From: Bacillota bacterium
GTDB lineage: Bacteria; Bacillota; Clostridia; Peptostreptococcales; Anaerovoracaceae
Assembly (NCBI GenBank): GCA_017431785.1
Contig: JAFRKJ010000019.1
Span: forward strand, 1 to 64,000
Length of the DNA stretch: 64,000 nucleotides
Direction of reading: 5' to 3'
Each line of letters starts with the position of its first letter. Position 1 is the first letter of the stretch. The translations under genes and the position numbers were made by a program. Shown one piece after another: positions 11,411-61,113 of this stretch. The notes below the pieces were generated by a model. That model made no database searches and was not told the DNA's origin. It saw only the letters and a list, made by a program, of their open reading frames with translations.

Positions 11411-12775
11411 ATGAAAAAGACACCTGAAGAAAACATCTACAAGACAATAGTGGAGAACCTTGGCGTTGAGATCTTCGTCAGCGACGGCAAAGGCAACGTT
11501 CTGTTTGTCAATCCGGCATCCATACAGATCAACGAACTGGATGTCGACAATGTCGTCGGACGCAATGTGCGTGAGCTGATGAAAGACGGATACTTCGAGG
11601 AGAGCAGTACACTTCGTGTGCTTAAGGACAAGAAGACAGAAAGTGTTCTGCAGCATCTTAAAAACGGCAAACAGGTCATAGCGACAGGCGTTCCTGTTTA
11701 CGATGACGACGGGAAAATCAGAATGGTCATCACTACATCCCAGGACATCGAAGCAGTTAACGAACTTGTTGAAACACTGAATGCTCAGGAAAAGGAGATT
11801 GACCTTCTGAAGAGACAGCTGCAGAAAAGCAGTGATTTCGACGTCAAAGATCCGGCGAGCATCAAGGTCAAATCCGCCATGGAAATGGTAGCTTCCCTTG
11901 ACATGCCGATACTCATTTCCGGTGAGTCCGGAACCGGCAAGCATATTGCCGCCAGATATATCCATTACTTCGGAAAGCGCAGGGATGAACATTTTATCAC
12001 CGTGAATTGTGTCAGTGCGGATCCGGACTTCTTGGAACAGGAGATCTTCGGACGGGAGAGCAACTCGGAGGACGGCAAGTCGGAAGTCATCATCCAGGGC
12101 AAGCTGGATCTGGCCAACGAAGGGACTCTGGCGCTGAACAATATCAGTTATATGCCGCAGAGGATTCAGTCGAAGCTCTTTGAATATATCAACACGGGAA
12201 CATTCACAAGGGCCGGCGGCCACCGGCCGGTGAAGTCGAACGCCCGGATCATCGCGATGACGGGAATGGACCTGCGGGCACTGAGTGATACAGGGATGTT
12301 CATGAAGGCTCTGTATTATAAGCTCAACACAGTGCCGATCGTGATTCCGCCGCTCAGAGACAGGGTGCGGGATATCCCGTATTTCGCCAATCAGTACGTT
12401 TTGAGATATAACGAAAAGTACAAGGCGAAGAAGATTCTGAACAAAGACGCTCTTGGTAAGCTCACATCCCACTCCTGGCCGGGCAATCTTATCGAACTCG
12501 ATCAGACCATTGAGAGTGCCTATGTCATGACTGAAGGACCAATCATAAGCGGAACGACCATATACAAAGTTCTGCACGGGGCGGATGATCAGAGCAAGAG
12601 CAAAAGCAGCGTATACTGCGAAGACATCATACCGCTCAAGGAAGCGAAGCACCTGCTGGAGGAACAGTTGGTAAAGCGGGCTTACGAGGTATATAAAACG
12701 ACAGGAAAGACAGCCGATGCATTGGGCGTAAACCAGTCCACTGTGTCGAGGATACTGAATAAATATTCGGGGTGA
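11411..12775 (+). CDS. PAS-domain regulator with degenerate sigma-54-type AAA+ domain
   Basis: 454 residues. PAS domain (about 10-120), coiled linker, AAA+ domain (about 148-380) and a C-terminal Fis-type helix-turn-helix (TADALGVNQSTVSRILNKY). The Walker A motif GESGTGK is kept. The Walker B region reads GTLALNNIS where active enhancer-binding proteins have GTLFLDEV, and the GAFTGA loop that contacts sigma-54 is absent: the region after IFGRE is replaced by an acidic stretch. It therefore cannot act as a sigma-54 activator and probably works as a TyrR-like sigma-70 regulator or repressor. No ribosome site is evident. Likely targets are the XpaC/TelA genes upstream. Confidence 0.85.
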   Translation: MKKTPEENIYKTIVENLGVEIFVSDGKGNVLFVNPASIQINELDVDNVVGRNVRELMKDGYFEESSTLRVLKDKKTESVLQHLKNGKQVIATGVPVYDDDGKIRMVITTSQDIEAVNELVETLNAQEKEIDLLKRQLQKSSDFDVKDPASIKVKSAMEMVASLDMPILISGESGTGKHIAARYIHYFGKRRDEHFITVNCVSADPDFLEQEIFGRESNSEDGKSEVIIQGKLDLANEGTLALNNISYMPQRIQSKLFEYINTGTFTRAGGHRPVKSNARIIAMTGMDLRALSDTGMFMKALYYKLNTVPIVIPPLRDRVRDIPYFANQYVLRYNEKYKAKKILNKDALGKLTSHSWPGNLIELDQTIESAYVMTEGPIISGTTIYKVLHGADDQSKSKSSVYCEDIIPLKEAKHLLEEQLVKRAYEVYKTTGKTADALGVNQSTVSRILNKYSG

Positions 12776-21743: not shown

Positions 21744-22133
21744 TTATTTTCTCTTCATTTCCTTCGGAGTTACGCAAGTTCCGGAAGCTCTTGCAACGAC
21801 GATTGGCTCTTCCAGGAAGTCTGCAGCTGAATCATTGATGTCTTTTCTTGAAACGATGACTTTTCTTGCTTCGAAGACCATGTGTCTTGAAGTGTTGCCG
21901 ATCTTGTCGATTTCGCCGTAAGCTTCGATGTAGTCACCAGCATAAGTAGGTGCCAGGAACTCTACGTTATCGTAAGCGCAGAACAGGCCTTCGTCTCCGT
22001 CCAGCTTGATGAGCAACTCAGTAGCAACATCACCAAAGAGGTGTACCATGTGAGCTCCATCTACCAGTTCTCCGCCGTAATGAGCGTCTTTTGCTGACAT
22101 TCTGAGTCTGAGTGTTGAAGTAATCTTTTCCAT
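21744..22133 (-). CDS. kal: 3-aminobutyryl-CoA ammonia-lyase
   Basis: 129 residues of the hotdog fold ([19 protein letters not shown], then [14 protein letters not shown]). It eliminates ammonia from L-3-aminobutyryl-CoA to give crotonyl-CoA, the last lysine-specific step of lysine fermentation. Identification rests on this short family profile plus context: it is divergent from the lysine regulator and its promoter is a -24/-12 box like that of the kdd-kam operon. GGAG precedes the ATG. It is monocistronic, with its own terminator. Confidence 0.9.
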
Positions 22134-22198: not shown

Positions 22199-22214
22199 TG
22201 CAAAACCAATGCCA
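22199..22214 (-). promoter_or_regulatory. Sigma-54 (-24/-12) promoter of kal
   Basis: Minus-strand TGGCAT-TGGTT-TTGCA matches the consensus TGGCAC-N5-TTGCA with the exact GG/GC spacing. It lies about 65 bases upstream of the kal ATG and next to the palindrome at 22244. Confidence 0.82.
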
Positions 22215-22243
22215 AACGTTTATCATATGAATCAGAGGAAAAC

Positions 22244-22259
22244 GAACCGAAAACGGTTC
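22244..22259. promoter_or_regulatory. Palindrome GAACCG-AAAA-CGGTTC, likely activator site
   Basis: A perfect 6-bp inverted repeat separated by four A. A near copy (GAACCA-AAAT-CGGTTC) lies 118 bases before the kdd sigma-54 promoter. The site is 30-45 bases upstream of the kal -24 box and 15 bases before the regulator's own start, so it could serve both activation of kal and control of the regulator gene. Confidence 0.65.
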
Positions 22260-22274
22260 AGGAGGTAAGATGAG

Positions 22275-24344
22275 ATGAACACATTTGGACTTGAACGATC
22301 ACTGACTCCACGCCGGACATTCACACCTCTGGCATGGGAGCTGGATAACAGCAGCCAGCTTCATGAAGGGGAGGTCAGAATCGCTCTGGACAGGGTGCAC
22401 GTGGAAGGAACCAGCTTCCGTCAGATCTGCCAGGAAGCCGGCAATGACGAAGAACGCATCAAAGAGAAAATCAAGGATATCGTCATCAGGAGGGGGAAAC
22501 TCCACAATCCGGTCACGGATACAGGAGGGCTTTTCTGCGGTGTCATTGAAGAGATAGACAGCAAATACGCCAACGAGAAGGGCTTGAAGCCGGGGGATGA
22601 GGTCATATGCAACTCGTCATTGGCTGGTATTCCTATGTACATAGACAAGATAAACGAAATCGACAAAGTGTATCCGCAGTTCACTGCAGAAGGGTATGCC
22701 ATCTCTTTGCCTGGAATGCCTGTTATCAAGAGACCAAAAGACCTTCCGATCGACCTGCTTTTGTTTACGTTTAATGAATCAGGGACGATTTATACGGTAT
22801 CAAAAGGCGCAAAGGACAAGAAACGGTTTGCCGTATTGGCCAACAATGTCATCATGGCGCTCATCTACGGCTACACGATCAAGAAGTCAGCGGGAGAAGA
22901 TGCTGAGATCTACTGCGTCCTCGACAGGAATACGCCGGTAGCGCTGAAAGGAGAAGGCGTTGAAGAGATAAAGAAGAAGATATTCACTGAGGTTCGTTAC
23001 GTCAATATGATGCGTCCGGCAGAATGCCTGAAGAACTTTGAAGGTACACCGCAGATGGACATGGTGGTTAACTGCGCGGACATTCCGGGTGCAGAAACCA
23101 TCAGTGTTATGGCTGCGAAGTCCGGCGGTACCGTCATCTTCGCCAACTTCATCAGCAATTACAACATTGCGCTGTATGTCACGGAAGCCACGTCAAAGGA
23201 CATCAATATCAGGTGCGCCGATGGATATCTGGAGAAGTACGACGAACTGGATTTTGAAATCGTCAGAGGTCTGGCGCCTTATTTTGAAGGCAATTTAGTA
23301 CCAAGGGAAAAGACGATCGCTGGGGGTCAGAAATCAGAGGTCGACAGGGAGATTCTGGAGCAGTACAATCAGCACAACTTGGAAGAGGCAGAGGATTTCA
23401 TAGCCGCAAGCCCACGGATGCGTTCTGTGCTCGATGAGATCATGAGTGTATCCAAGTATGACTGCAATGTTCTGATCACAGGAGATACCGGTGTCGGTAA
23501 AGAAAAGGTGGCCAACATCATTCAGAAGAACAGCCGCCGGAAGATGCAGCCTTTTATCAAGATCAATTGCGCTTCCATATCCCCGAATCTCATTGAATCA
23601 GAGTTCTTCGGATATGAGAAGGGCGCCTTCACCGGTGCTGATACAAAGGGTAAAATCGGATACTTTGAAGCGGCGGATAACGGTATCATCTTCCTGGATG
23701 AAGTGGGCGAGCTGCCGATGGATATGCAGGCAAAGCTTCTTCGCGTCATACAGGATGGAGAATTCCTGAAAGTGGGCGGCACAACGCCTGTGAAGACGGA
23801 TGTCAGGATCATTTCCGCCACCAATAAGGATCTGGAGGATCTGGTGGAAAAGAGGGTGTTCAGGCGGGATTTGTACTACAGACTCAACGTATTTCCAATC
23901 AAGGTGCCTGCGCTGGATGAACGAATCGAGGACATCCCGCATCTTGCTGACAACTTCGTCCGGAAGTACAACGAGAAGTTCGGTATGGACAAGTACATCG
24001 ACGAAGAAGCGAAGGAAAGCCTGGCTTCCCACAAGTGGCCGGGTAATATCAGAGAGCTGGAAAACGTGATTCAAAGACTGCTGATTGCCAGCAGCAGCGA
24101 TGCTGTTACGGTTATTGACGTTGTCAAAGAGCTGGACGGAGGTTTGCTGGGAGGCATAGAAACAATGGTGCCGGCGGAATCGGACCAGGAAAGTGACATA
24201 GATTTAACAAGTATGGTTGAGGCCTTCGAAAAGAACATCATCAGAGAAGCATGCGAGAGATATGGCTCCACGAGAAAAGCGGCAAAAGCAATTGGTATTT
24301 CCCAGACCCAGCTCGTCCGAAAGAAAAACAAATACGGCCTGTAA
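22275..24344 (+). CDS. Sigma-54 activator with Kdd-like sensor domain (lysine fermentation regulator)
   Basis: 689 residues. The N-terminal part (about 1-355) aligns by eye with the 3,5-diaminohexanoate dehydrogenase encoded at 24621: shared spacing of TSFRQIC/ASFTEIC, KDIVIRRGKLHNP/KDIVAKAGKHKNP, GGLFCGVIEEI/GGMLIGTVKEI and LKPGDEV/LKVGDKI. The dinucleotide loop GGGGKSG of the enzyme is replaced by LANNVIM, so NAD binding and catalysis are probably lost. A full AAA+ domain follows (Walker A GDTGVGK 403-409, GAFTGA 450-455, Walker B IIFLDEV) and a Fis-type helix-turn-helix (about 664-689). It should activate kal and kdd-kam transcription on sensing a lysine-pathway intermediate. GGAGG precedes the ATG. 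Confidence 0.9.
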   Translation: MNTFGLERSLTPRRTFTPLAWELDNSSQLHEGEVRIALDRVHVEGTSFRQICQEAGNDEERIKEKIKDIVIRRGKLHNPVTDTGGLFCGVIEEIDSKYANEKGLKPGDEVICNSSLAGIPMYIDKINEIDKVYPQFTAEGYAISLPGMPVIKRPKDLPIDLLLFTFNESGTIYTVSKGAKDKKRFAVLANNVIMALIYGYTIKKSAGEDAEIYCVLDRNTPVALKGEGVEEIKKKIFTEVRYVNMMRPAECLKNFEGTPQMDMVVNCADIPGAETISVMAAKSGGTVIFANFISNYNIALYVTEATSKDINIRCADGYLEKYDELDFEIVRGLAPYFEGNLVPREKTIAGGQKSEVDREILEQYNQHNLEEAEDFIAASPRMRSVLDEIMSVSKYDCNVLITGDTGVGKEKVANIIQKNSRRKMQPFIKINCASISPNLIESEFFGYEKGAFTGADTKGKIGYFEAADNGIIFLDEVGELPMDMQAKLLRVIQDGEFLKVGGTTPVKTDVRIISATNKDLEDLVEKRVFRRDLYYRLNVFPIKVPALDERIEDIPHLADNFVRKYNEKFGMDKYIDEEAKESLASHKWPGNIRELENVIQRLLIASSSDAVTVIDVVKELDGGLLGGIETMVPAESDQESDIDLTSMVEAFEKNIIREACERYGSTRKAAKAIGISQTQLVRKKNKYGL

Positions 24345-24381: not shown

Positions 24382-24410
24382 ACGCGAACCAAAATCGGTT
24401 CGCGTTTTTT
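24382..24410 (+). terminator. Regulator terminator containing a second activator site
   Basis: ACGCGAACC, six bases, GGTTCGCGT, then TTTTT: a 9-bp stem with a T run, 38 bases after the regulator stop. The core GAACCAAAATCGGTTC (24386-24401) matches the palindrome at 22244 at 14 of 16 positions and lies 118 bases before the kdd -24 box, a usual enhancer distance. One sequence may thus act as RNA terminator and DNA enhancer. A half-site (AAAACGGT, near 24435-24442) follows. Confidence 0.7.
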
Positions 24411-24518
24411 GCGCAGAGAACACATAACGGTTCAAAAACGGTGGATATGAGAGCCGCAAAATGGGAATGACTTTGTGAAAGCCTTAACACAAGGGGTTTC
24501 CGCAATAAGGACTTGGAT

Positions 24519-24534
24519 TGGCATGTATATTGCT
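24519..24534 (+). promoter_or_regulatory. Sigma-54 (-24/-12) promoter of the kdd-kam-ato operon
   Basis: TGGCAT-GTATA-TTGCT fits the consensus with the exact spacing. Expected start is near 24546, giving a leader of about 75 nt before kdd. Confidence 0.87.
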
Positions 24535-24620
24535 ATATTAGTGAAGTAAGTTAAAACTGCCTTTGCAAGAAGGCGAGGCCTGGCAAAGGCTTGAATACAA
24601 AAAATTTAGGAGGAAAAATC

Positions 24621-25682
24621 ATGAAAAAAGGAAATCCGTACGGAACACACAGAGTTATCTCACCTAAGGGCGTTCTGCCACAGCCTGCAGACGTAGTAGA
24701 CAACACTATGGAAATCTATGACAACGAGATCCTGATCGACGTTAAGACACTGAACATCGACTCAGCTTCATTTACAGAAATCTGCAAGCAGGTTCTGAAC
24801 AAGAAGCCGGCTGAAATCGAAACACAGGAAGAAAAGGACAAGGTTGCACAGTGCATGAAGGACATCGTTGCTAAGGCTGGAAAGCACAAGAACCCTTGGA
24901 CTGGTTCAGGCGGAATGCTGATCGGTACAGTTAAGGAAATCGGACCTGAGTGGAAAGGCGACCTGAAGGTTGGCGACAAGATCGCTACACTGGTATCACT
25001 GTCACTGACTCCACTGGTAATCGAAGAGATCCACGAGATGAGACCTGCAATCGACCAGGTTGACATCACTGGCCAGGCTATCCTGTTCCAGAGCGGTATC
25101 TATGCTAAGCTTCCTGATGACATGCCGGAAGGTCTCGCACTTTCAGCACTGGACGTTGCAGGTGCTCCTGCACAGACAGGCAAGCTGGTTCAGCAGGGAC
25201 AGAAAGTCCTCGTCATCGGCGGCGGCGGCAAGTCAGGTCTTCTCTGCCTCTACGAAGCAAAGAAGAGAGCCGGCGTAACTGGTCTGGTTGTCTGTGCAGC
25301 AGGTTCACAGAAATCAGAAGACAGAGCAAGAGCTCTTGATCTGGCAGACGAGTACTTCCACATGGATGCTTCCGATGCAGTTGGAATGTATGAGAAGGCT
25401 ATGGAACTGACAAACGGCGAACTGTACGATGTAGTAATCAACTGCGTATCCATCGAGAACACTGAGATGGGCTCCATCCTCAGCTGTAAGGACGATGGAA
25501 CAGTTTACTTCTTCTCAATGGCTACAAGCTTCACAAAGGCTGCTCTGGGAGCAGAGGGCGTTGGCAAGGACGTTAACATGATCGTAGGTAACGGATACAC
25601 TAAGGGCCACGCTGAGATCACTCTGCAGGAACTGAGAGAGCATGAAGGCCTCAGAAAGCTCTTTGAAGAAATGTATGCATAA
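24621..25682 (+). CDS. kdd: L-erythro-3,5-diaminohexanoate dehydrogenase
   Basis: 353 residues from ATG 24621 (AGGAGG ten bases upstream; an in-frame ATG at 24591 lacks a ribosome site). An NAD-dependent oxidative deaminase that makes 5-amino-3-oxohexanoate in lysine fermentation. A Rossmann-type loop reads VLVIGGGGKSGLL (about 197-209). The N-terminal region (YGTHRVISPKGVLPQPA) is typical of Kdd. It is the first gene of the operon; the next start is 37 bases on. Confidence 0.92.
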   Translation: MKKGNPYGTHRVISPKGVLPQPADVVDNTMEIYDNEILIDVKTLNIDSASFTEICKQVLNKKPAEIETQEEKDKVAQCMKDIVAKAGKHKNPWTGSGGMLIGTVKEIGPEWKGDLKVGDKIATLVSLSLTPLVIEEIHEMRPAIDQVDITGQAILFQSGIYAKLPDDMPEGLALSALDVAGAPAQTGKLVQQGQKVLVIGGGGKSGLLCLYEAKKRAGVTGLVVCAAGSQKSEDRARALDLADEYFHMDASDAVGMYEKAMELTNGELYDVVINCVSIENTEMGSILSCKDDGTVYFFSMATSFTKAALGAEGVGKDVNMIVGNGYTKGHAEITLQELREHEGLRKLFEEMYA

Positions 25683-25719: not shown

Positions 25720-26979
25720 ATGGCTATTAGAAATTGGAAAGACATTCCTCTTTTCAAGGATGTCACAGAAGAACAGTGGAACGACTGGCACTGGCAGGTT
25801 GCAAACCGTCTGAACACAGTTGAGCAGATCAAGCAGGTCGTCAACCTTACTCCGCAGGAAGAGGAAGACATCACTAAGGTAATGGATGGCTTCAGAGTAG
25901 GCATCACTCCTTACTACGCTTCCCTGATGGATCCGGATGATCCGCACTGCCCGGTAAGAATGCAGGCTGTTCCAACGCTGGCTGAGACGCACAGAGGCGA
26001 AGCAGATATGCTGGACCCTCTGCACGAAGACGAAGACTCACCGGCACCTGGACTGACTCACAGATACCCTGACAGAGTTCTGTTCCTGATTACTGACCAG
26101 TGCTCCATGTACTGCAGACACTGCACCAGAAGAAGACTGGCAGGTGAAACAGACGGCGCAAGATCCAGAGAAGACATCGACGCTTGCATCGATTACATCA
26201 GAAGAACTCCGGTTGTCAGAGACGTACTGCTTTCCGGCGGAGACGCTCTCTGCGTAGAGACAGACGTTCTCGAGTACATCATCTCAGAGCTGAGAAAGAT
26301 AGACCACGTTGAAATCGTAAGAATCGGATCAAGAACACCGGTCGTTATGCCGCAGAGAATCACAGATGAACTGTGCGACATGCTGAAGAAGTATCATCCA
26401 ATTTGGCTGAACACTCACTTCAACCATCCGAAAGAATGGACTCCGGAAGCTGCAGAAGCATGTAGAAAACTGGCTGACGCAGGTATTCCTCTCGGAAACC
26501 AGTCAGTACTGCTCAGAGGCGTAAACGATGACGTTCATGTTATGAGAAATCTGGTACAGCTCTGCTGCAAGAACAGAGTTCGTCCGTACTACATCTATCA
26601 GTGCGACCTGTCACTTGGTATCGAGCACTTCAGAACTCCGGTATCCAAGGGCATCGAGATCATCGAAGGACTCAGAGGTCACACTTCCGGATATGCAGTT
26701 CCTACATTCGTAATTGACGCTCCGGGCGGCGGCGGAAAGACTCCTGTAATGCCTCAGTACGTAATTTCACAGACTCCTGAAAAGGTTATCCTGAGAAACT
26801 ACGAAGGCGTTATCACGACTTACACTGAGCCACAGGGACAGCCACCTCTCCAGTGTAGCTATGAGAACTGCAAGAACGTAGAAGATTATCACTATGAAGG
26901 TGTTGCAGGACTGGCACAGGGCGAAAGAATGTCCATGGAGCCGGCTCACCTGCTCAGACACGAAAGAAACAAGAAATAA
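25720..26979 (+). CDS. kamA: Lysine 2,3-aminomutase
   Basis: 419 residues. This radical SAM, PLP enzyme converts L-lysine to L-beta-lysine, the first step of the pathway. The cluster motif CSMYCRHC has Cys at 128, 132 and 135; the PLP lysine is K340 in PGGGGKTP. C-terminal GEPCQ-type zinc region is represented by cysteines near CSYENC. Length and order match the clostridial enzyme. GGAG precedes the ATG; 13 bases separate it from kamB. Confidence 0.96.
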   Translation: MAIRNWKDIPLFKDVTEEQWNDWHWQVANRLNTVEQIKQVVNLTPQEEEDITKVMDGFRVGITPYYASLMDPDDPHCPVRMQAVPTLAETHRGEADMLDPLHEDEDSPAPGLTHRYPDRVLFLITDQCSMYCRHCTRRRLAGETDGARSREDIDACIDYIRRTPVVRDVLLSGGDALCVETDVLEYIISELRKIDHVEIVRIGSRTPVVMPQRITDELCDMLKKYHPIWLNTHFNHPKEWTPEAAEACRKLADAGIPLGNQSVLLRGVNDDVHVMRNLVQLCCKNRVRPYYIYQCDLSLGIEHFRTPVSKGIEIIEGLRGHTSGYAVPTFVIDAPGGGGKTPVMPQYVISQTPEKVILRNYEGVITTYTEPQGQPPLQCSYENCKNVEDYHYEGVAGLAQGERMSMEPAHLLRHERNKK

Positions 26980-26992
26980 GAAATCCGGGTAA

Positions 26993-28012
26993 ATGTATCT
27001 GTTAGAAGAACTTGCTGAAAACTACAAAAGGATCTCCATCGTAGGAATGGCGAAGAACGCAGGCAAGACCACTGCCCTCAATTATCTGATTGAGGAAGCA
27101 ATGGATGAAGGCCTGACGCTCGCCGTCACTTCCACAGGCAGAGATGGAGAGGGAACCGATGTAGTAACAGGTACAGAGAAACCTAGAGTATATCTGGATC
27201 AAGGCACTATCGTATCGGTGCCGAAACAGTTATATGAACTGGCGGATGCCGGACTCGAAATACTCAGGATGACGGAATACGGCACTTCTCTCGGGCAGAT
27301 CATGCTCTGCAGAGTTGCTGACGCAGGGTACGTCCAGGTGGCAGGGCCGGTAATCAACGCCCAGCACATTACCATGTGCGAAGAAATGCTTGCTCTTGGA
27401 GCTGATCTGGTGCTCATTGACGGTGCGATCGACAGGAAATCGATCGCGGCACCGGACATCTCGGATGCGATCATCCTTTCCACCGGAGCGGTTTTGTCGA
27501 GGAAACTGAGCAAGGTCGTAGAAGAAACAGCTTATACAGTTGAACTCTACAGCCTGCCGGTTCTCGAAGATGGTGAAGAGAGAAGAATAATTGAAGAGCA
27601 GGCGGACAGTGATCGTTTATTCACAGTCAAAAACGGCGAAGCCGTTACATTGAATATAGCTACGGGACTCGGTTCGGGAAAACTCCTTGATAACGCGATT
27701 GACGAAGAGGTCACACACGTTTTCGTGCCGGGTGCATTCACCCAAAGTGTTGTGACGAACATAGATCGTCGGAAACTGAAGAATGTCACCTTTGTTCTCA
27801 AGGATCCTACGAAAATTTTTATTGATAGGACGGTCTGGGGCAAACTGAGAAAGTACGGCCTTCAGGTAAAAGTCCTTGAGAACATCAAGGTGGTAGCAAT
27901 AACCGTCAACCCGACGAGTCCTGCAGGATATTCATTCGATCACGATGAGTTGACATCCGAAATGCAGAAAGCCGCAGGAGATATCCCTGTAATAGATGTA
28001 ATGATGGGCTAG
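26993..28012 (+). CDS. kamB: P-loop protein of the lysine fermentation operon (KamB)
   Basis: 339 residues. Walker A GMAKNAGKT at 18-26 near the N-terminus marks a P-loop NTPase of the SIMIBI kind. VLIDGAIDRKS follows at about residue 140. The gene position between kamA and kamD is the same as in known lysine clusters (Clostridium, Fusobacterium), where it is called kamB and has no proven function. I infer a role in maintaining the B12-dependent aminomutase together with KamC. The ribosome site is weak (GGGTAA). Confidence 0.8.
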   Translation: MYLLEELAENYKRISIVGMAKNAGKTTALNYLIEEAMDEGLTLAVTSTGRDGEGTDVVTGTEKPRVYLDQGTIVSVPKQLYELADAGLEILRMTEYGTSLGQIMLCRVADAGYVQVAGPVINAQHITMCEEMLALGADLVLIDGAIDRKSIAAPDISDAIILSTGAVLSRKLSKVVEETAYTVELYSLPVLEDGEERRIIEEQADSDRLFTVKNGEAVTLNIATGLGSGKLLDNAIDEEVTHVFVPGAFTQSVVTNIDRRKLKNVTFVLKDPTKIFIDRTVWGKLRKYGLQVKVLENIKVVAITVNPTSPAGYSFDHDELTSEMQKAAGDIPVIDVMMG

Positions 28013-28017
28013 GTGAG

Positions 28018-29655
28018 ATGAGCGAAGGAGCCAGAAGACTTGCAAACAAAAAAACGAGAAGCGAGACAGGACTGGATTATGTCGTAAGCTCTATTAACGT
28101 GCTTACGCCCTTTGGCGTCAGAATCTTAAAAGAACAGAAACCTTTTATGCCCGGGCAGGAGGAAGAACTCAGAGCAGAGTTCGACCGCATACAGAGAATG
28201 GCTGAAATCGCGGGTGCCAACAAGCGCGAGATAAGCGTACTTCAGGAAACGTTCATGATGATGAAGGACAATTCTTTCACCATTGAAAGAAGCGCAGGTG
28301 CAGCGCTGTCCGTCGTCGAGATCTTTGAAATCAAGAGTCTGCTGTTGCTTTTGGATAAAGTGAGAAAGGTTGCGGATCAGGTAGGCTTGCCTGAGGAGTT
28401 CGTGCCGGGGGACATCACAGAGCTTCTGGACGTACTCGATCCGGGGAAAGACAGACTCAACACCTTCTACATCTACGACTCATTCTCAGAGAAACTCGCT
28501 CAGCTTCGCAGCGAGAAGAAGGAGCTTGAGAGACAGACGAGGAGAGAAAAGAAAAAGAGAAAAAATGAACTGAGGGCTGAAACAGGCCTGAACCTGACAC
28601 CGAAATTCGATATTACAGTATCGAAGAGTGATGCGAAGCGTATAGAAATGATAAATGAGATTTCCGATTTGGTAAAATCGGAGGAAGATTATATGTCTGT
28701 TACCTATGTCCTCGCACCGACGGAAGCAGAGAATCAGATTCAGAAGAAGATGGATGAGACCACTGCTGAGATCGAAGAAGAGGAACTCAAGGTAAGAGAG
28801 GAACTGTCGCAAGAGATACACAAGTGGGCGGTAGTGCTCCTGACCGCGTGTGAGCGGGTCGGACAGCTGGACGTGACACTGGCAAAAGCACTGTTTGCGA
28901 AGAAGCGCAACTGTGTCAGACCGGAAATTGTGGAAGAACACGTCCTGGAGTTTGAGGATGGCAGACACCTTCAGGTGGAAGAAATCGTGAACAAGAAGGG
29001 CGGCGAATATTGCCCGGTCAGCATTTCTCTGAAACAGGGTGTCACCTGCATAACAGGGGCAAACATGGGCGGAAAAACGGTGTCTCTGAAACTGGTGGGC
29101 ATGGTTGCGATACTGGCCCAGTACGGATACTTCGTACCGGCAGCGAGCGCACGTGTCGGCCTTTCGAACTTCATGCAGATCCTCATAGGTGACAGTCAGT
29201 CCATAGAAAGGGGCCTTTCGAGCTTCGGCAGTGAAATGGAGGAGCTCAAAGAAATTATGGACAACAGCCGGGACAGATCGCTGCTTCTCATTGATGAGAT
29301 TGCGAGCGGAACAAATCCGGCAGAGGGGCTGGCGCTGACAAAGAGCATTACGGATTACCTGAAGCAGCAGCCGTTCATCGCTCTGATAACAACTCACTTC
29401 GAGACGGTTACAGAGGATAAGGATGTTGTGAACATGCAGGTAACAGGCCTTGCGAATGCGGACTTTGACAGACTGGACAAGGAGCTCCGGTACGCGAACA
29501 GGAGGGAGCGGATAAACATCATACAAAAGTATATGGACTACCGCCTCACCCGCGTGGACAACAACAGGGAGATTCCGAAGGACGCCCTGAACATTGCGAA
29601 AATGCTTGGCATAGACGCAAATATTATTGAAAAGGCAAAACAATACTTGAACTAA
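28018..29655 (+). CDS. kamC: MutS-like ATPase of the lysine fermentation operon (KamC)
   Basis: 545 residues. The C-terminal third is a MutS-type ABC ATPase: Walker A GANMGGKT at 347-354, SSFGSEMEEL (signature-like), Walker B LLLIDEIASGTNP at 422-434 and TTHFE. The mismatch-recognition domain of MutS is absent; the N-terminal half is helical and coiled-coil. In lysine clusters it is called kamC. The placement just before both subunits of lysine 5,6-aminomutase suggests a protein-remodelling or reactivation task rather than DNA repair. It is five bases after kamB. Confidence 0.85.
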   Translation: MSEGARRLANKKTRSETGLDYVVSSINVLTPFGVRILKEQKPFMPGQEEELRAEFDRIQRMAEIAGANKREISVLQETFMMMKDNSFTIERSAGAALSVVEIFEIKSLLLLLDKVRKVADQVGLPEEFVPGDITELLDVLDPGKDRLNTFYIYDSFSEKLAQLRSEKKELERQTRREKKKRKNELRAETGLNLTPKFDITVSKSDAKRIEMINEISDLVKSEEDYMSVTYVLAPTEAENQIQKKMDETTAEIEEEELKVREELSQEIHKWAVVLLTACERVGQLDVTLAKALFAKKRNCVRPEIVEEHVLEFEDGRHLQVEEIVNKKGGEYCPVSISLKQGVTCITGANMGGKTVSLKLVGMVAILAQYGYFVPAASARVGLSNFMQILIGDSQSIERGLSSFGSEMEELKEIMDNSRDRSLLLIDEIASGTNPAEGLALTKSITDYLKQQPFIALITTHFETVTEDKDVVNMQVTGLANADFDRLDKELRYANRRERINIIQKYMDYRLTRVDNNREIPKDALNIAKMLGIDANIIEKAKQYLN

Positions 29656-29667
29656 AGGAGAAAAAGG

Positions 29668-31224
29668 ATGGAAAGTAAACTCAACCTGGACCCTAAAAAG
29701 GTCGATCATGCCAGAGCGAGCGCCAGAAAGATCGCAGAGAGCATGCAGGAATTCATCGACAGACACACTACAGTCAGCACAGAGAGAACAATTCTCAGAC
29801 TGCTGGGCGTAGACGGCGTTGATGAAGTTGATACTCCACTGCCTAACGTAGTAGTAGATCAGATTCTCGATGCAGGCGGACTGCCTAGAGGAGTCGCTTA
29901 CTGGATCGGTAACGCAATGATTCAGACAGGCAAAGAGCCGCAGGAAATCGCAGAGGAAATGGCTGCAGGAAACCTTGATATCACCAAGCTCCCGCTGGCT
30001 CCTGCGAAAGAAGCAGAAGAGAAGATCATGCCGAGGGTAATGGAAGCTCTTAAGGTCATCAGAGCGCAGACAGAGAAGAGAAACAACTATCTGGCAACAA
30101 TAGGTGAAGGCAGAAGACCTTACCTGTACGTAATCGTAGCAACAGGAAACATCTACGAAGACGTTGTACAGGCACAGGCTGCAGCACGTCAGGGAGCGGA
30201 CATCATCGCAGTAATCAGAACAACTGCACAGTCACTTCTTGACTATGTACCATACGGACCGACAACAGAAGGATTCGGCGGTACATACGCAACGCAGGAG
30301 AACTTCAGAATCATGAGAAAAGCTCTTGATGAAGTTGGCGAAGAAGTTGGAAGATACATCAGACTGTGTAACTACTCATCAGGAATGTGCATGCCGGAAA
30401 TCGCTGCAATGGGCGCCATCGAGAGACTGGACGTTATGCTGAACGACGCTCTCTACGGAATCCTGTTCAGAGACATCAACATGCAGAGAACGCTGGTTGA
30501 CCAGTACTTCTCAAGAGTTATCATCGGATACTGCGATATCATATTCAACTCCGGTGAAGACAACTACCTCACAACGGACGACGCCTTTGAGAACGCTCAC
30601 ACTGTATTGGCTTCACAGCTGATCAACGAGCAGTTCGCAGTTCTGGCAAACGTTAAGGAAGAGCAGATGGGACTGGGTCACGCATTCGAAATGGATCCGG
30701 ACATCGAGAACGGATTCCTCTACGAGCTGGCACAGGCGATCATGGCAAGAGAAATCTTCCCGAACGCACCTCTGAAGTACATGCCTCCTACGAAGTACAT
30801 GACAGGAAACATCTTCAAGGGCAACGTACAGGATGCGCTGTTCAACATGATTGCAATCTGGTCCGGACAGTCACTGCAGCTCCTCGGAATGCTGACAGAG
30901 GCTATTCACACACCGCATATGCACGACAGATATCTCTCCATTGAAAATGCACAGTACATCTTCAATAACATGAGAGACTTAGGCAGCGATGTATATTACA
31001 AGGAAGGCGGAATCATCCAGTCAAGAGCACAGCTCGTACTCGACAAGGCAGATGCGCTCCTGGAAGAAATCGTTGAAGAAGGACTCTTCTCAACAATCGA
31101 ACAGGGCAAGTTCGGCGGCGTTAAGAGACCGAGAGACGGCGGCAAGGGCCTGGCAGGCGTTTGCGTCAAGGATGATGAATACTTCAATCCGTTCATTCCA
31201 CTTATGTTAGGAGGTGTAGAATAA
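29668..31224 (+). CDS. kamD: D-lysine 5,6-aminomutase alpha subunit
   Basis: 518 residues, a TIM-barrel subunit (N-terminus NLDPKKVDHARASARKIAES) that holds the substrate and PLP site with KamE. The enzyme moves the 6-amino group of beta-lysine to C5, using adenosylcobalamin. Sequence features TVSTERTILRLLGVDGVD and MHDRYLSIENAQYIFNN match the family, and the length agrees. AGGAG precedes the ATG. Its TAA overlaps the kamE ATG by one base. Confidence 0.95.
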   Translation: MESKLNLDPKKVDHARASARKIAESMQEFIDRHTTVSTERTILRLLGVDGVDEVDTPLPNVVVDQILDAGGLPRGVAYWIGNAMIQTGKEPQEIAEEMAAGNLDITKLPLAPAKEAEEKIMPRVMEALKVIRAQTEKRNNYLATIGEGRRPYLYVIVATGNIYEDVVQAQAAARQGADIIAVIRTTAQSLLDYVPYGPTTEGFGGTYATQENFRIMRKALDEVGEEVGRYIRLCNYSSGMCMPEIAAMGAIERLDVMLNDALYGILFRDINMQRTLVDQYFSRVIIGYCDIIFNSGEDNYLTTDDAFENAHTVLASQLINEQFAVLANVKEEQMGLGHAFEMDPDIENGFLYELAQAIMAREIFPNAPLKYMPPTKYMTGNIFKGNVQDALFNMIAIWSGQSLQLLGMLTEAIHTPHMHDRYLSIENAQYIFNNMRDLGSDVYYKEGGIIQSRAQLVLDKADALLEEIVEEGLFSTIEQGKFGGVKRPRDGGKGLAGVCVKDDEYFNPFIPLMLGGVE

Positions 31225-31994
31225 TGGCAGAATGCAATACAGCAGTAGCTCAGATTGATCTGACGAAAGTAAAGCCATATGGCGACACGCTTAACGATGG
31301 TATGACGGAAGTAGCGTTCACACTTCCTGTACCTTATGGTGATGAAGCCAATGAAGCGGCTAAGATCCTCGCTAAGAAGATGGGTCTTGACGAGCCGAAT
31401 GTTGTTTATTCCAAGGCGATGACCAAGGAATACACATTCTTCGTAGTATACGGCAAGTGCCAGCACACAGTTGACTACACGACGATCAAGGTTGCAAAGG
31501 TCGACGTAGACGTTATGGACAGGCTTGAGTGCGCTGAGTATATCAAGGAAAACATCAAGAGACCTGTAGTAATCGTAGGCGCGTCAACAGGTACAGACGC
31601 ACATACAGTAGGTATCGACGCTATCATGAATATGAAGGGCTTCCACGGCCACTTCGGTCTTGAAAGATATGAAGGCATCGAAGCATACAACTACGGATCA
31701 CAGGTACCGAATGAAGACCTCATTGCACACGCAAAGGAACTTCATGCAGATGCGATTCTGGTATCACAGACAGTAACACAGAAGGACATCCACATCCAGA
31801 ACCTGACAAACATGGTTGAACTTCTTGAAGCAGAAGGAATGAGAGATAAGGTCATCCTCGTTTGCGGCGGACCGAGAATCTCCCACGAACTGGCTCAGGA
31901 ACTCGGCTATGACGCAGGATTCGGCCAGCACAAATATGCTGAGGATGTAGCGTCATTCGTTCTGACTGAGATCGTTAACCGCGGTATGGTATAA
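31224..31994 (+). CDS. kamE: D-lysine 5,6-aminomutase beta subunit
   Basis: 256 residues. It binds adenosylcobalamin and PLP. DAHTVG supplies the cobalt-binding His127, and K138 eleven residues later (in NMKGFHGH) corresponds in spacing to the PLP lysine of the Clostridium sticklandii enzyme (His133, Lys144). AGGAGGTG precedes the start, which overlaps the kamD stop. It acts as a complex with KamD. Confidence 0.95.
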   Translation: MAECNTAVAQIDLTKVKPYGDTLNDGMTEVAFTLPVPYGDEANEAAKILAKKMGLDEPNVVYSKAMTKEYTFFVVYGKCQHTVDYTTIKVAKVDVDVMDRLECAEYIKENIKRPVVIVGASTGTDAHTVGIDAIMNMKGFHGHFGLERYEGIEAYNYGSQVPNEDLIAHAKELHADAILVSQTVTQKDIHIQNLTNMVELLEAEGMRDKVILVCGGPRISHELAQELGYDAGFGQHKYAEDVASFVLTEIVNRGMV

Positions 31995-32038: not shown

Positions 32039-32764
32039 ATGTTCAATAAAATCTTAACAGCTGACGAAGCAGTTGCAGGTGTACAGGACGGTATGACTAT
32101 CATGGTCGGCGGATTCCTGGGAACAGGTTCCCCGGAAGTCCTGATGGACGCTCTCGTACGCAAAGGCGTTAAGCACCTTACTGTTATCGGTAATGACGGC
32201 GGTCTGGCAGAAGGCCAGCCAGCAGGTGAATTCGCAGGCAAGACTCCAAGAGGAATCGGCAAACTGTTAGAGCACCACATGGTAGACCACGTTATCATGT
32301 CACACGTTGGTGTAAACCCTCGTCTGAACGAGCAGTTTGCTGACGGCAGCCTGAAGTACACTCTGGTTCCGCAGGGAACACTTGCTGAGAAAATCAGAGC
32401 AGCAGCTTATGGACTCGGCGGGGTTCTGACACCAGTAGGACTTGGTACTCCAATGGAGACTGACCTGGACGAACTCGGAAGAGAGAAGGAAGTAATGGTA
32501 ATCGACGGAAAGAAGTATCTCTTCGAGAGACCTCTTCACGCTGACTACTCCTTCATCAGAGCATCCATGGCAGACAAGTTTGGAAACTATATGTGTTCAA
32601 AGGCAACAAGAAACTTCAACATCGTTATGGCTGGAGCAGCTGATCACACCGTTATTGCAGCAGAAAAACTGGTCGAAGTTGGCTCAGTAGATCCTGACAT
32701 CTGGCAGGTAGCTGGCGTACTGGTTGAATCAATCGTGGAAGGAGAACCAAAATGGCAGATTTAA
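32039..32764 (+). CDS. atoD: Acetoacetate/butyrate CoA-transferase subunit A
   Basis: 241 residues. Class I CoA-transferase alpha subunit (TIMVGGFLGTGSPE, VIGNDGG, LVPQGTLAEKIR). With subunit B it transfers CoA between butyryl-CoA or acetyl-CoA and acetoacetate. In lysine fermentation it disposes of the acetoacetate formed by the keto-acid cleavage step. The ribosome site (GAAAGG) is moderate. It overlaps atoA by 13 bases. Confidence 0.93.
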   Translation: MFNKILTADEAVAGVQDGMTIMVGGFLGTGSPEVLMDALVRKGVKHLTVIGNDGGLAEGQPAGEFAGKTPRGIGKLLEHHMVDHVIMSHVGVNPRLNEQFADGSLKYTLVPQGTLAEKIRAAAYGLGGVLTPVGLGTPMETDLDELGREKEVMVIDGKKYLFERPLHADYSFIRASMADKFGNYMCSKATRNFNIVMAGAADHTVIAAEKLVEVGSVDPDIWQVAGVLVESIVEGEPKWQI

Positions 32765-33408
32765 AAGCAAGAATCGCGAAGAGATGTGCAAAACACTTTG
32801 AGGACGGCGATTTCATCAATCTCGGAATTGGTCTTCCTACAATGGTAGCTGACTATCTTCCTGAGGATGTCATCATCACTTGCCACTCCGAAAACGGTTT
32901 TGCAGGAATCGATATCCTGGCAGACGAGGAAACGCTCGACACAAACATCATCAACTCAGGCGGACAGTATGTAACAGCTCTTCCAAGAGCAAAGTTCTTC
33001 GACACAGCTGAAAGCTTCGGACTCGTAAGAGGCGGACACGTTAAGGCTACTGTTCTCGGCGCTATGGAAGTTGCCGAAAACGGAGACCTGGCAAACTGGA
33101 TCGTTCCTGGCAAGAAGGTTGCAGGAATGGGCGGAGCGATGGACCTGTGCGTAGGATGTCCTGAAGTAATCATCACGATGCTTCACACTCAGAAGGGCAA
33201 CCACAAGATCAAGAAAGAGTGCACACTCCCTCTGACTGCAGAGAAGTGCGTAACAGACATCATCACAGAGATGGCTGTTATGAAGGTTACAGATGAAGGC
33301 ATCGTTGTTACAGAACTGCACCCTGACTACACGAAGGAAGAAGTTCAGGAAGCAACAGGTGTGGAACTCATCTGGTCACCTGACCTGAAGCCTTACGACG
33401 AAACGTGA
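32752..33408 (+). CDS. atoA: Acetoacetate/butyrate CoA-transferase subunit B
   Basis: 218 residues. Beta subunit of the class I CoA-transferase, with catalytic Glu47 in HSENGF and the oxyanion-loop region GGQYVTALP. GGAG lies inside the end of atoD, before the ATG, so the subunits are translated in a coupled way. It is the last gene of the operon; a terminator follows 51 bases later. Confidence 0.94.
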   Translation: MADLKARIAKRCAKHFEDGDFINLGIGLPTMVADYLPEDVIITCHSENGFAGIDILADEETLDTNIINSGGQYVTALPRAKFFDTAESFGLVRGGHVKATVLGAMEVAENGDLANWIVPGKKVAGMGGAMDLCVGCPEVIITMLHTQKGNHKIKKECTLPLTAEKCVTDIITEMAVMKVTDEGIVVTELHPDYTKEEVQEATGVELIWSPDLKPYDET

Positions 33409-61083: not shown

Positions 61084-61113
61084 AAAAGGGAACCCGTACG
61101 GGTTCCCTTTTTT
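61084..61113 (+). terminator. Terminator of the ior operon
   Basis: AAAAGGGAACCCGT / ACGGGTTCCCTTTT stem, then TT. It lies 29 bases after the FrhB-like gene. Confidence 0.92.

Follow-up and report, generated by a model that had tools for sequence, protein, structure and literature searches.

A predicted sigma-54 activator with a 3,5-diaminohexanoate dehydrogenase-like sensor domain in the lysine-fermentation cluster of Anaerovoracaceae

Introduction

What is a domain resembling 3,5-diaminohexanoate dehydrogenase (Kdd) doing at the N-terminus of a predicted sigma-54 activator that is encoded next to kdd itself? The question is raised by contig JAFRKJ010000019.1 of a Bacillota bacterium of the family Anaerovoracaceae (GenBank assembly GCA_017431785.1), of which the first 64,000 nucleotides were analysed and are referred to here as the window. 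A sequence-only reading of this DNA had proposed that a catabolic enzyme was turned into the sensor of its own pathway's activator, having lost its cofactor loop but kept its substrate fold. Other regulator families do include enzyme-like sensors; for example, the MocR/GabR regulators, such as EnuR, possess an aminotransferase-like sensor domain, and these are GntR-type proteins, not sigma-54 activators, that keep the cofactor.

In a survey of 490 Clostridiales activators (Nie et al. 2019, PMC6615313), which are likewise one-component sigma-54 activators of amino-acid fermentation, the sensors listed are PAS, GAF, HPr, PrpR_N, ACT, CBS, Fer4, Fe-hydrogenase, FeS, V4R and RR domains; this list has no Kdd-like domain, and the word "lysine" is absent from the main text. 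In Bacilli, lysine 2,3-aminomutase genes were predicted by a 2025 survey (PMC12316311) to be under sigma-54 control. That case resembles the present one in the predicted control of this enzyme family but comes from another bacterial class; for this chemistry, control by sigma-54 is therefore by itself no novelty.

Results

We found that the activator gene (22275..24344, forward strand), which encodes 689 residues from an ATG start and was identified from its ORF and by BLASTP, Pfam and NCBIfam, lies between kal (3-aminobutyryl-CoA ammonia lyase; 21744..22133, reverse strand) and kdd (24621..25682), the latter followed, all on the forward strand, by kamA (lysine 2,3-aminomutase; 25720..26979), kamB (reactivase subunit; 26993..28012), kamC (reactivase ATPase; 28018..29655), kamD and kamE (lysine 5,6-aminomutase alpha and beta; 29668..31224 and 31224..31994) and the CoA-transferase pair atoD-atoA (32039..33408). 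These genes were assigned with NCBIfam models, except that atoA (32752-33408) was assigned by position only. The ATG of kdd at 24621 is preceded by AGGAGG, and the TTG at 24591 chosen by the ORF finder is probably not the true start; the likely start lies 277 bases past the activator stop, in agreement with the distance of about 300 bases given earlier. The order kal (reverse), activator, kdd and kam genes recurs in the genus of the source genome and in other Anaerovoracaceae genera, with kdd following the activator in the lysine clusters of this family that have enough flank. In the lysine clusters of some genera (L082, L089, L093 and L103), two kdd-like genes lie side by side. The source genome, which is 81% complete, has one sigma-54 gene and one Kdd-domain fusion, and its BKACE-family gene (kce type) sits on another contig.

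The C-terminal part of the protein places it among the sigma-54 activators. Residues 376-542 matched the Sigma54_activat AAA+ domain (Pfam, E=1e-67), with an AAA lid also present, and the domain is intact as had been read from the letters, with Walker A GDTGVGKE (residues 403-410; 23481..23504), the sigma-54 contact loop GAFTGA (residues 450-455; 23622..23639) and Walker B IIFLDE (residues 471-476; 23685..23702), all on the forward strand. These motifs are followed by a C-terminal HTH_50 DNA-binding domain (residues 642-689; 24198..24341, forward strand; Pfam, E=4e-13), sigma-54 is encoded in the genome, and conservation points to candidate sites, palindromes upstream of -24/-12 promoters. Among the fusions compared, a loose expression missed Walker A, loop 1 and Walker B in two of the 35 lysine-cluster rows each, and loop 1 in two of the 33 paralogous fusions. 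The window encodes a second sigma-54-type activator (11411-12775, forward strand; 454 residues), which shares 32% identity with the Kdd-domain activator over the AAA+ half and has no GAFTGA in its translation.

A Pfam search with residues 1-352 returned no family up to E=1, thus no PAS, GAF, ACT or receiver match. This region (22275..23330, forward strand, with approximate ends) is similar to Kdd: BLASTP of residues 2-338 against the adjacent Kdd gave 123 bits (E=4e-35, 26% identity); the solved Kdd, PDB 7dl3, matched the activator domain with E=1.3e-21 and a 73-row sensor profile with 1.2e-66; and a comparison of the profile of 73 sensor domains with that of 53 Kdds gave a probability of 100 and E=3.2e-80 over 349 columns. 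The earlier alignment by eye of the first 355 or so residues with Kdd was thus borne out, and on these alignments we regard homology from end to end as certain. The NCBIfam Kdd model NF052381 matched residues 5-170 (window 22287-22784) with E=1.6e-32 and 112.9 bits, under its 200-bit cut-off, whereas the neighbouring Kdd scored 245.6 bits, over the cut-off. By this curated score, by its lack of the GxxGKxG loop and by its failure to group with Kdds in the tree, the domain is probably not a Kdd enzyme. NF052381 has 178 positions, half of the enzyme, and matches Kdd-domain regulators under its cut-off; such partial matches could be miscounted or misnamed as Kdd. Compared with Kdd (NF052381; PDB 7dl0, 7dl1, 7dl3 and 7dl7), the sensor is alike along the whole length of residues 1-352 and has the GK..NP.T..GG block and E304 in common with the enzyme, but it has lost the nucleotide loop, has many enzyme-invariant residues replaced and is fused to AAA+ and HTH domains.

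Residues were compared among 53 Kdds, 35 lysine-cluster sensors, 33 paralogous sensors, four loop-keeping fusions and two tandem copies. In the activator, the nucleotide loop GGGGKSG (Kdd residues 210-216) is replaced by ANNVIMA (residues 189-195; 22839..22859, forward strand, by alignment); the loss of the loop, claimed before, is therefore real, but the replacement then given, LANNVIM, is one residue off. The loop residues G213, K214 and G216 are kept in none of the 35 lysine-cluster and none of the 33 paralogous sensors. Most sensors retain the block GK..NP.T..GG as well as D280, E292, G303 and E322 (Kdd numbering). The last of these corresponds to E304 of the activator (23184..23186, forward strand) and to Glu310 of PDB 7dl3; in our alignments 35/35 sensors of the lysine clusters and 29/33 of the paralogs retain it, and it is the most constant pocket residue of the sensors. 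In Kdd, Glu310 is reported to bind the NADPH amide and the change E310G to affect substrate scope (PMC9902596), suggesting that one cofactor contact survives the loss of the loop. The equivalent of Kdd G323 is kept in all 35 lysine-cluster sensors and in 9% of the paralogs; by contrast with Kdd, where it is an invariant V, position 168 (E168; 22776..22778, forward strand, by alignment) is acidic in 95% of 74 fused sensors; and the Kdd-invariant residues H340, F308, F314 and G333 are replaced in 35/35 lysine-cluster sensors.

The claim that the substrate fold had been kept found support for the overall fold only. With Kdd residues 196-305 assumed to be the Rossmann lobe, Kdd-conserved positions were kept at 32/107 outside versus 5/27 inside it (p=0.34), and E304, the pocket residue best retained, equals the cofactor-contacting Glu310 (PMC9902596). 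Preferential retention of substrate-lobe residues was rejected, being non-significant in all four variants of the comparison (p 0.34 to 1.0), so the ligand may be something other than the native substrate. Eighteen positions were peculiar to the lysine-cluster sensors, a pattern that would be consistent with separate selection on a pocket.

For the sensor tree, 211 candidate genes were reduced to 201 usable ones and, at 88% identity, to 127 rows (74 sensors and 53 Kdds). In this tree of the sensor half, made by a quick method with SH-aLRT values only, one branch (SH-aLRT 99) parts the 74 sensors from the 53 Kdds, which makes the split an old one. A recent duplication of the neighbouring kdd is rejected by this topology, and the idea of a pathway enzyme turned sensor, if read as a copy of the operon's own kdd, has to be given up. 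Four fusions, L149, L128, L057 and L058, keep the pattern G-x-x-[GT]-K-x-G. Counted from the Kdds, L149 departs first, then L128/L057/L058, then the loop-less sensors, and the same order (L149, L128/L057/L058, loop-less clade) emerged when the AAA+ half was analysed against an outgroup of ordinary activators. L149, L057 and L058 are directly upstream of kdd, and L128 is not; L149 and L128 form long branches.

AAA+ trees were made with 52 fusions and 26 activators, and then with 31 fusions and 39 of 42 activators. In the tree with 39 ordinary activators, including those of the L149 lineage, the fusions fell on one side of a branch with support of 93/89, which is not decisive; without the outlier L149 the support of the fusion branch was 99/94. 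In its AAA+ half, L149 shares as much as 53% identity with ordinary activators from the lineage to which it belongs, compared with 44-50% for the other fusions. An independent second fusion in L149 is disfavoured by the AAA+ tree, at a support of only 93/89; a single origin including L149 appears favoured, and one fusion followed by one loop loss is the simplest account.

Motif searches and conservation located exact sigma-54 promoters on both sides of the activator gene, TTGGCATTGGTTTTGCA facing kal (22199..22215, reverse strand) and TTGGCATGTATATTGCT before kdd (24518..24534, forward strand). In addition, motif conservation marked a palindrome between kal and the activator gene, GAACCGAAAACGGTTC (22244..22259), as a probable activator site, and two sites before kdd, GAACCAAAATCGGTTC (24386..24401), which is also terminator-shaped here, and, 32 bp from it, GAACACATAACGGTTC (24418..24433), which has one mismatch. 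The footprinting set consisted of 83 of the 101 fused genes in the fetched loci, leaving out genes in later loci that lacked an ORF table and rows whose compared flanks were identical; kal or kdd lay alongside in 46 of the 83, including the loop-keeping L057 and L058. Exact TGGCA-N6-TTGC was present before kal in 35/42 and before kdd in 37/41 regions, against 0.02 and 0.1 regions expected from mononucleotide shuffles, which preserve base composition only. GAACC-N6-GGTTC with at most one mismatch was present in 37/45 regions upstream of the activator and in 37/41 kdd-side regions, against 0.1 and 0.2 in shuffles and 0 and 1 with the reversed motif; as with the promoters, the regions are related by descent and the counts are thus not independent events. 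In L057 and L058, the promoter was present and the palindrome absent.

The first two kdd-side palindromes (at most two mismatches) lie 32-34 bp apart in 31/34 cases, about three helical turns. On the kal side, 28 bp separate the palindrome from the -24 end of the kal promoter but only 15 bp separate it from the activator start downstream, a spacing with which it may serve autoregulation instead. Runs of at least five T follow the first kdd-side site in 15/33 cases, the second in 1/33 and the activator-upstream site in 0/37, and these fail to explain the motif; that the palindromes are mere terminators was therefore rejected. An exact GAACC-N6-GGTTC at window 61090-61105 is part of an intrinsic terminator (GGGAACCCGTACGGGTTCCC followed by a T-run) and is unlikely to be a regulator site. 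The 2.7-Mb genome has palindrome matches at seven places, two of them in the lysine cluster, and one match to the reversed pattern; within about 1.5 kb of the five outside the cluster there was no exact sigma-54 core (L077 had two with one mismatch). Membership of kce in the same regulon was rejected, as the two BKACE matches had no sigma-54 core and no palindrome, each with up to one mismatch allowed, within 1.5 kb on either side. From the conserved promoters and palindromes, the Kdd-domain protein is probably the activator of the lysine pathway.

None of the 33 loop-less paralogs had kdd in the fetched flanks. When the paralogous and loop-keeping genes, 37 in all, were scanned within 3 kb, exact TGGCAY-N5-TTGC was found in 26 and not in the other 11, and 20 of the 37 had an ORF just downstream of that sigma-54 core, versus 0.3 genes expected by shuffling 2.5-kb flanks with base composition kept. 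Neighbours of the paralogs encode CoA-transferase, thiolase, class-III aminotransferase, NhaC and other Na+/H+-antiporter-type carriers, amino-acid permeases, EamA carriers with a B3/4 protein, histidinol dehydrogenase homologs and a pyruvate-formate-lyase-like pair, suggesting that the sensor family may serve several amino-acid-like signals; some neighbours, such as PNPase and a shikimate kinase fusion, look unrelated. For example, the paralogous fused activator adjoins a histidinol dehydrogenase homolog in L084 and L106, and a pyruvate-formate-lyase-like enzyme and a radical SAM protein in L052. In L050 and L051, from another family, two fused activators stand in tandem before kamA and atoDA, and a class III aminotransferase is encoded at a greater distance, an arrangement that is perhaps a Kat-type lysine or beta-lysine route.

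Loci L121-L148 comprised 27 Kdd loci and the fusion L128, two of the 28 being incomplete. A separate activator was found beside kdd and kamA within 1.5 kb in 10/28, each with one exact sigma-54 core, and in 17/28, with the two incomplete loci in the sample, no activator of either type was found within 1.5 kb. Eight of these ten, kdd loci of other Peptostreptococcales families chosen for their adjacent activator, were analysed with longer flanks (L219-L226); in all eight the activator lies directly upstream of kdd and has a PAS-like sensor, with a PAS match over the Pfam cut-off in seven and below it in L220. These proteins, which are probable lysine-pathway regulators and go unmentioned in the main text of the Clostridiales survey (PMC6615313), resemble the Kdd-domain activator in position, in AAA+/HTH plan and in having one exact sigma-54 core, but their PAS sensor has about 110 residues and is not Kdd-like, and their AAA+ domains are 34-40% identical to that of the Kdd-domain activator. 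Among loci with an activator, the Kdd-like domain thus stands in the sensor position.

A search for the same fusion elsewhere, proposed earlier, found it widely in this family. The sensor-domain profile matched 228 of 393 Peptostreptococcales genomes, and the best match was at E<=1e-110, the range of fused domains, in 106 by hand count, namely 102 Anaerovoracaceae, of which 21 are in the source genus and 81 elsewhere in the family, and the four genomes G044, G055, G127 and G193. A few rows among the 106 were truncated, at a contig end or by a short frame (G014, G020, G256 and G388), or contained a stop (G319), and the fusion L128 (G360) scored lower and is outside the 106. The other profile matches that were fetched were nearly all Kdds. 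In a Bacillota sample, 82/398 genomes matched and, among the matches listed, only the source genome and G520 had the fusion. Three genomes of the source genus that are 91-97% complete (G019, G024 and G316) had neither Kdd nor fusion at E<=1e-10.

Discussion

We consider the protein to be a one-component sigma-54 activator of lysine fermentation whose non-catalytic Kdd-fold domain would sense a small molecule of the pathway, and give this reading, drawn from comparison of sequences, a probability of roughly three in four. In the mechanism that we envisage, the HTH would bind the GAACC-N6-GGTTC palindromes, a diamino acid of the pathway would bind the cleft of the Kdd-like domain, and the ligand would relieve the sensor's hold on the AAA+ ring, which would then open the sigma-54 promoters. 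Our best guess for the ligand is 3,5-diaminohexanoate itself, followed by beta-lysine or lysine, but the guess is tentative and the odds are clearly against any such single choice. A signal of lysine or beta-lysine, taken as one alternative, comes closer to an even chance while falling short of it: the paralogs beside amino-acid-type transporters suggest amino-acid ligands, whereas the domain is homologous to an enzyme that has 3,5-diaminohexanoate as its substrate. During growth on lysine, the levels of the homologous pathway proteins in Intestinimonas increase about 10-fold (PMC4697335), a response that does not separate the candidates.

The domain may instead sense the enzyme, forming mixed oligomers with Kdd so that free or substrate-loaded Kdd sets its activity. 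A fold common to sensor and Kdd along the whole length makes a shared subunit interface possible, kdd follows the activator in the Anaerovoracaceae clusters, and there is a precedent in RtcR, a sigma-54 activator whose CARF domain is reported to bind enzymes under its control (PMC9650030); the loop-less paralogs without kdd in their fetched flanks, and L050 and L051, where kamA and not kdd follows the activator, make this reading unlikely. RtcR is similar to the present protein in being a sigma-54 activator with a Rossmann-type regulatory domain, but its reported CARF partners are proteins (PMC9650030). Slightly more doubtful still is a domain that senses redox state or nicotinamide nucleotides through some other mode of NAD(P)(H) binding, for which the retention of E304, the reported NADPH-amide contact, in 35/35 and 29/33 sensors, that of the G323 equivalent in the lysine-cluster sensors and the intact loop of the four basal fusions may be cited; however, the pyrophosphate loop is gone in 68/68 sensors, the G323 equivalent is rare in the paralogs, and E304 may instead hold the amino group of a ligand or the fold. 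To our knowledge, CARF is not a relative of the dehydrogenases. The same fold and the loop of the basal members would also suit an active dehydrogenase fused to a regulator, a trigger enzyme, but with the loop absent in the activator and in all 68 loop-less sensors compared, and H340, F308, F314 and G333 replaced throughout the lysine-cluster set, such an activity seems highly improbable.

The non-catalytic small-molecule sensor that we prefer may have arisen in steps. The two concordant trees suggest that a Kdd-like domain, with its loop at first intact, was fused once, beside kdd, and that loss of the loop was followed by expansion in the Anaerovoracaceae, where paralogs came to serve other operons for amino acids and their transporters. 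We lean, with some reserve, towards a family of sigma-54 activators not described before, whose sensor evolved from a dehydrogenase stepwise, by fusion beside kdd with the loop, gain of E168, loss of the loop and radiation into amino-acid sensors for multiple ligands; if so, enzyme, intermediate and pure sensor would be open to side-by-side study.

Among the top-listed papers of the open-access literature, a scope outside which most subscription papers fall, none treats a Kdd-domain regulator by title or start of abstract. What appears new is the Kdd-derived sensor on a sigma-54 activator, such activators, and enzyme-like sensors elsewhere, being already known. The finding would add a class of enzyme-derived sensors to regulators whose sensors are mostly PAS, GAF, ACT and receiver domains, and would name a regulator and a binding site for lysine fermentation in the Anaerovoracaceae, which are found in gut and rumen genomes. 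It would also provide an ordered series, with the loop kept, the loop lost and targets that appear to be new, as a means of testing how catalysis gives way to sensing.
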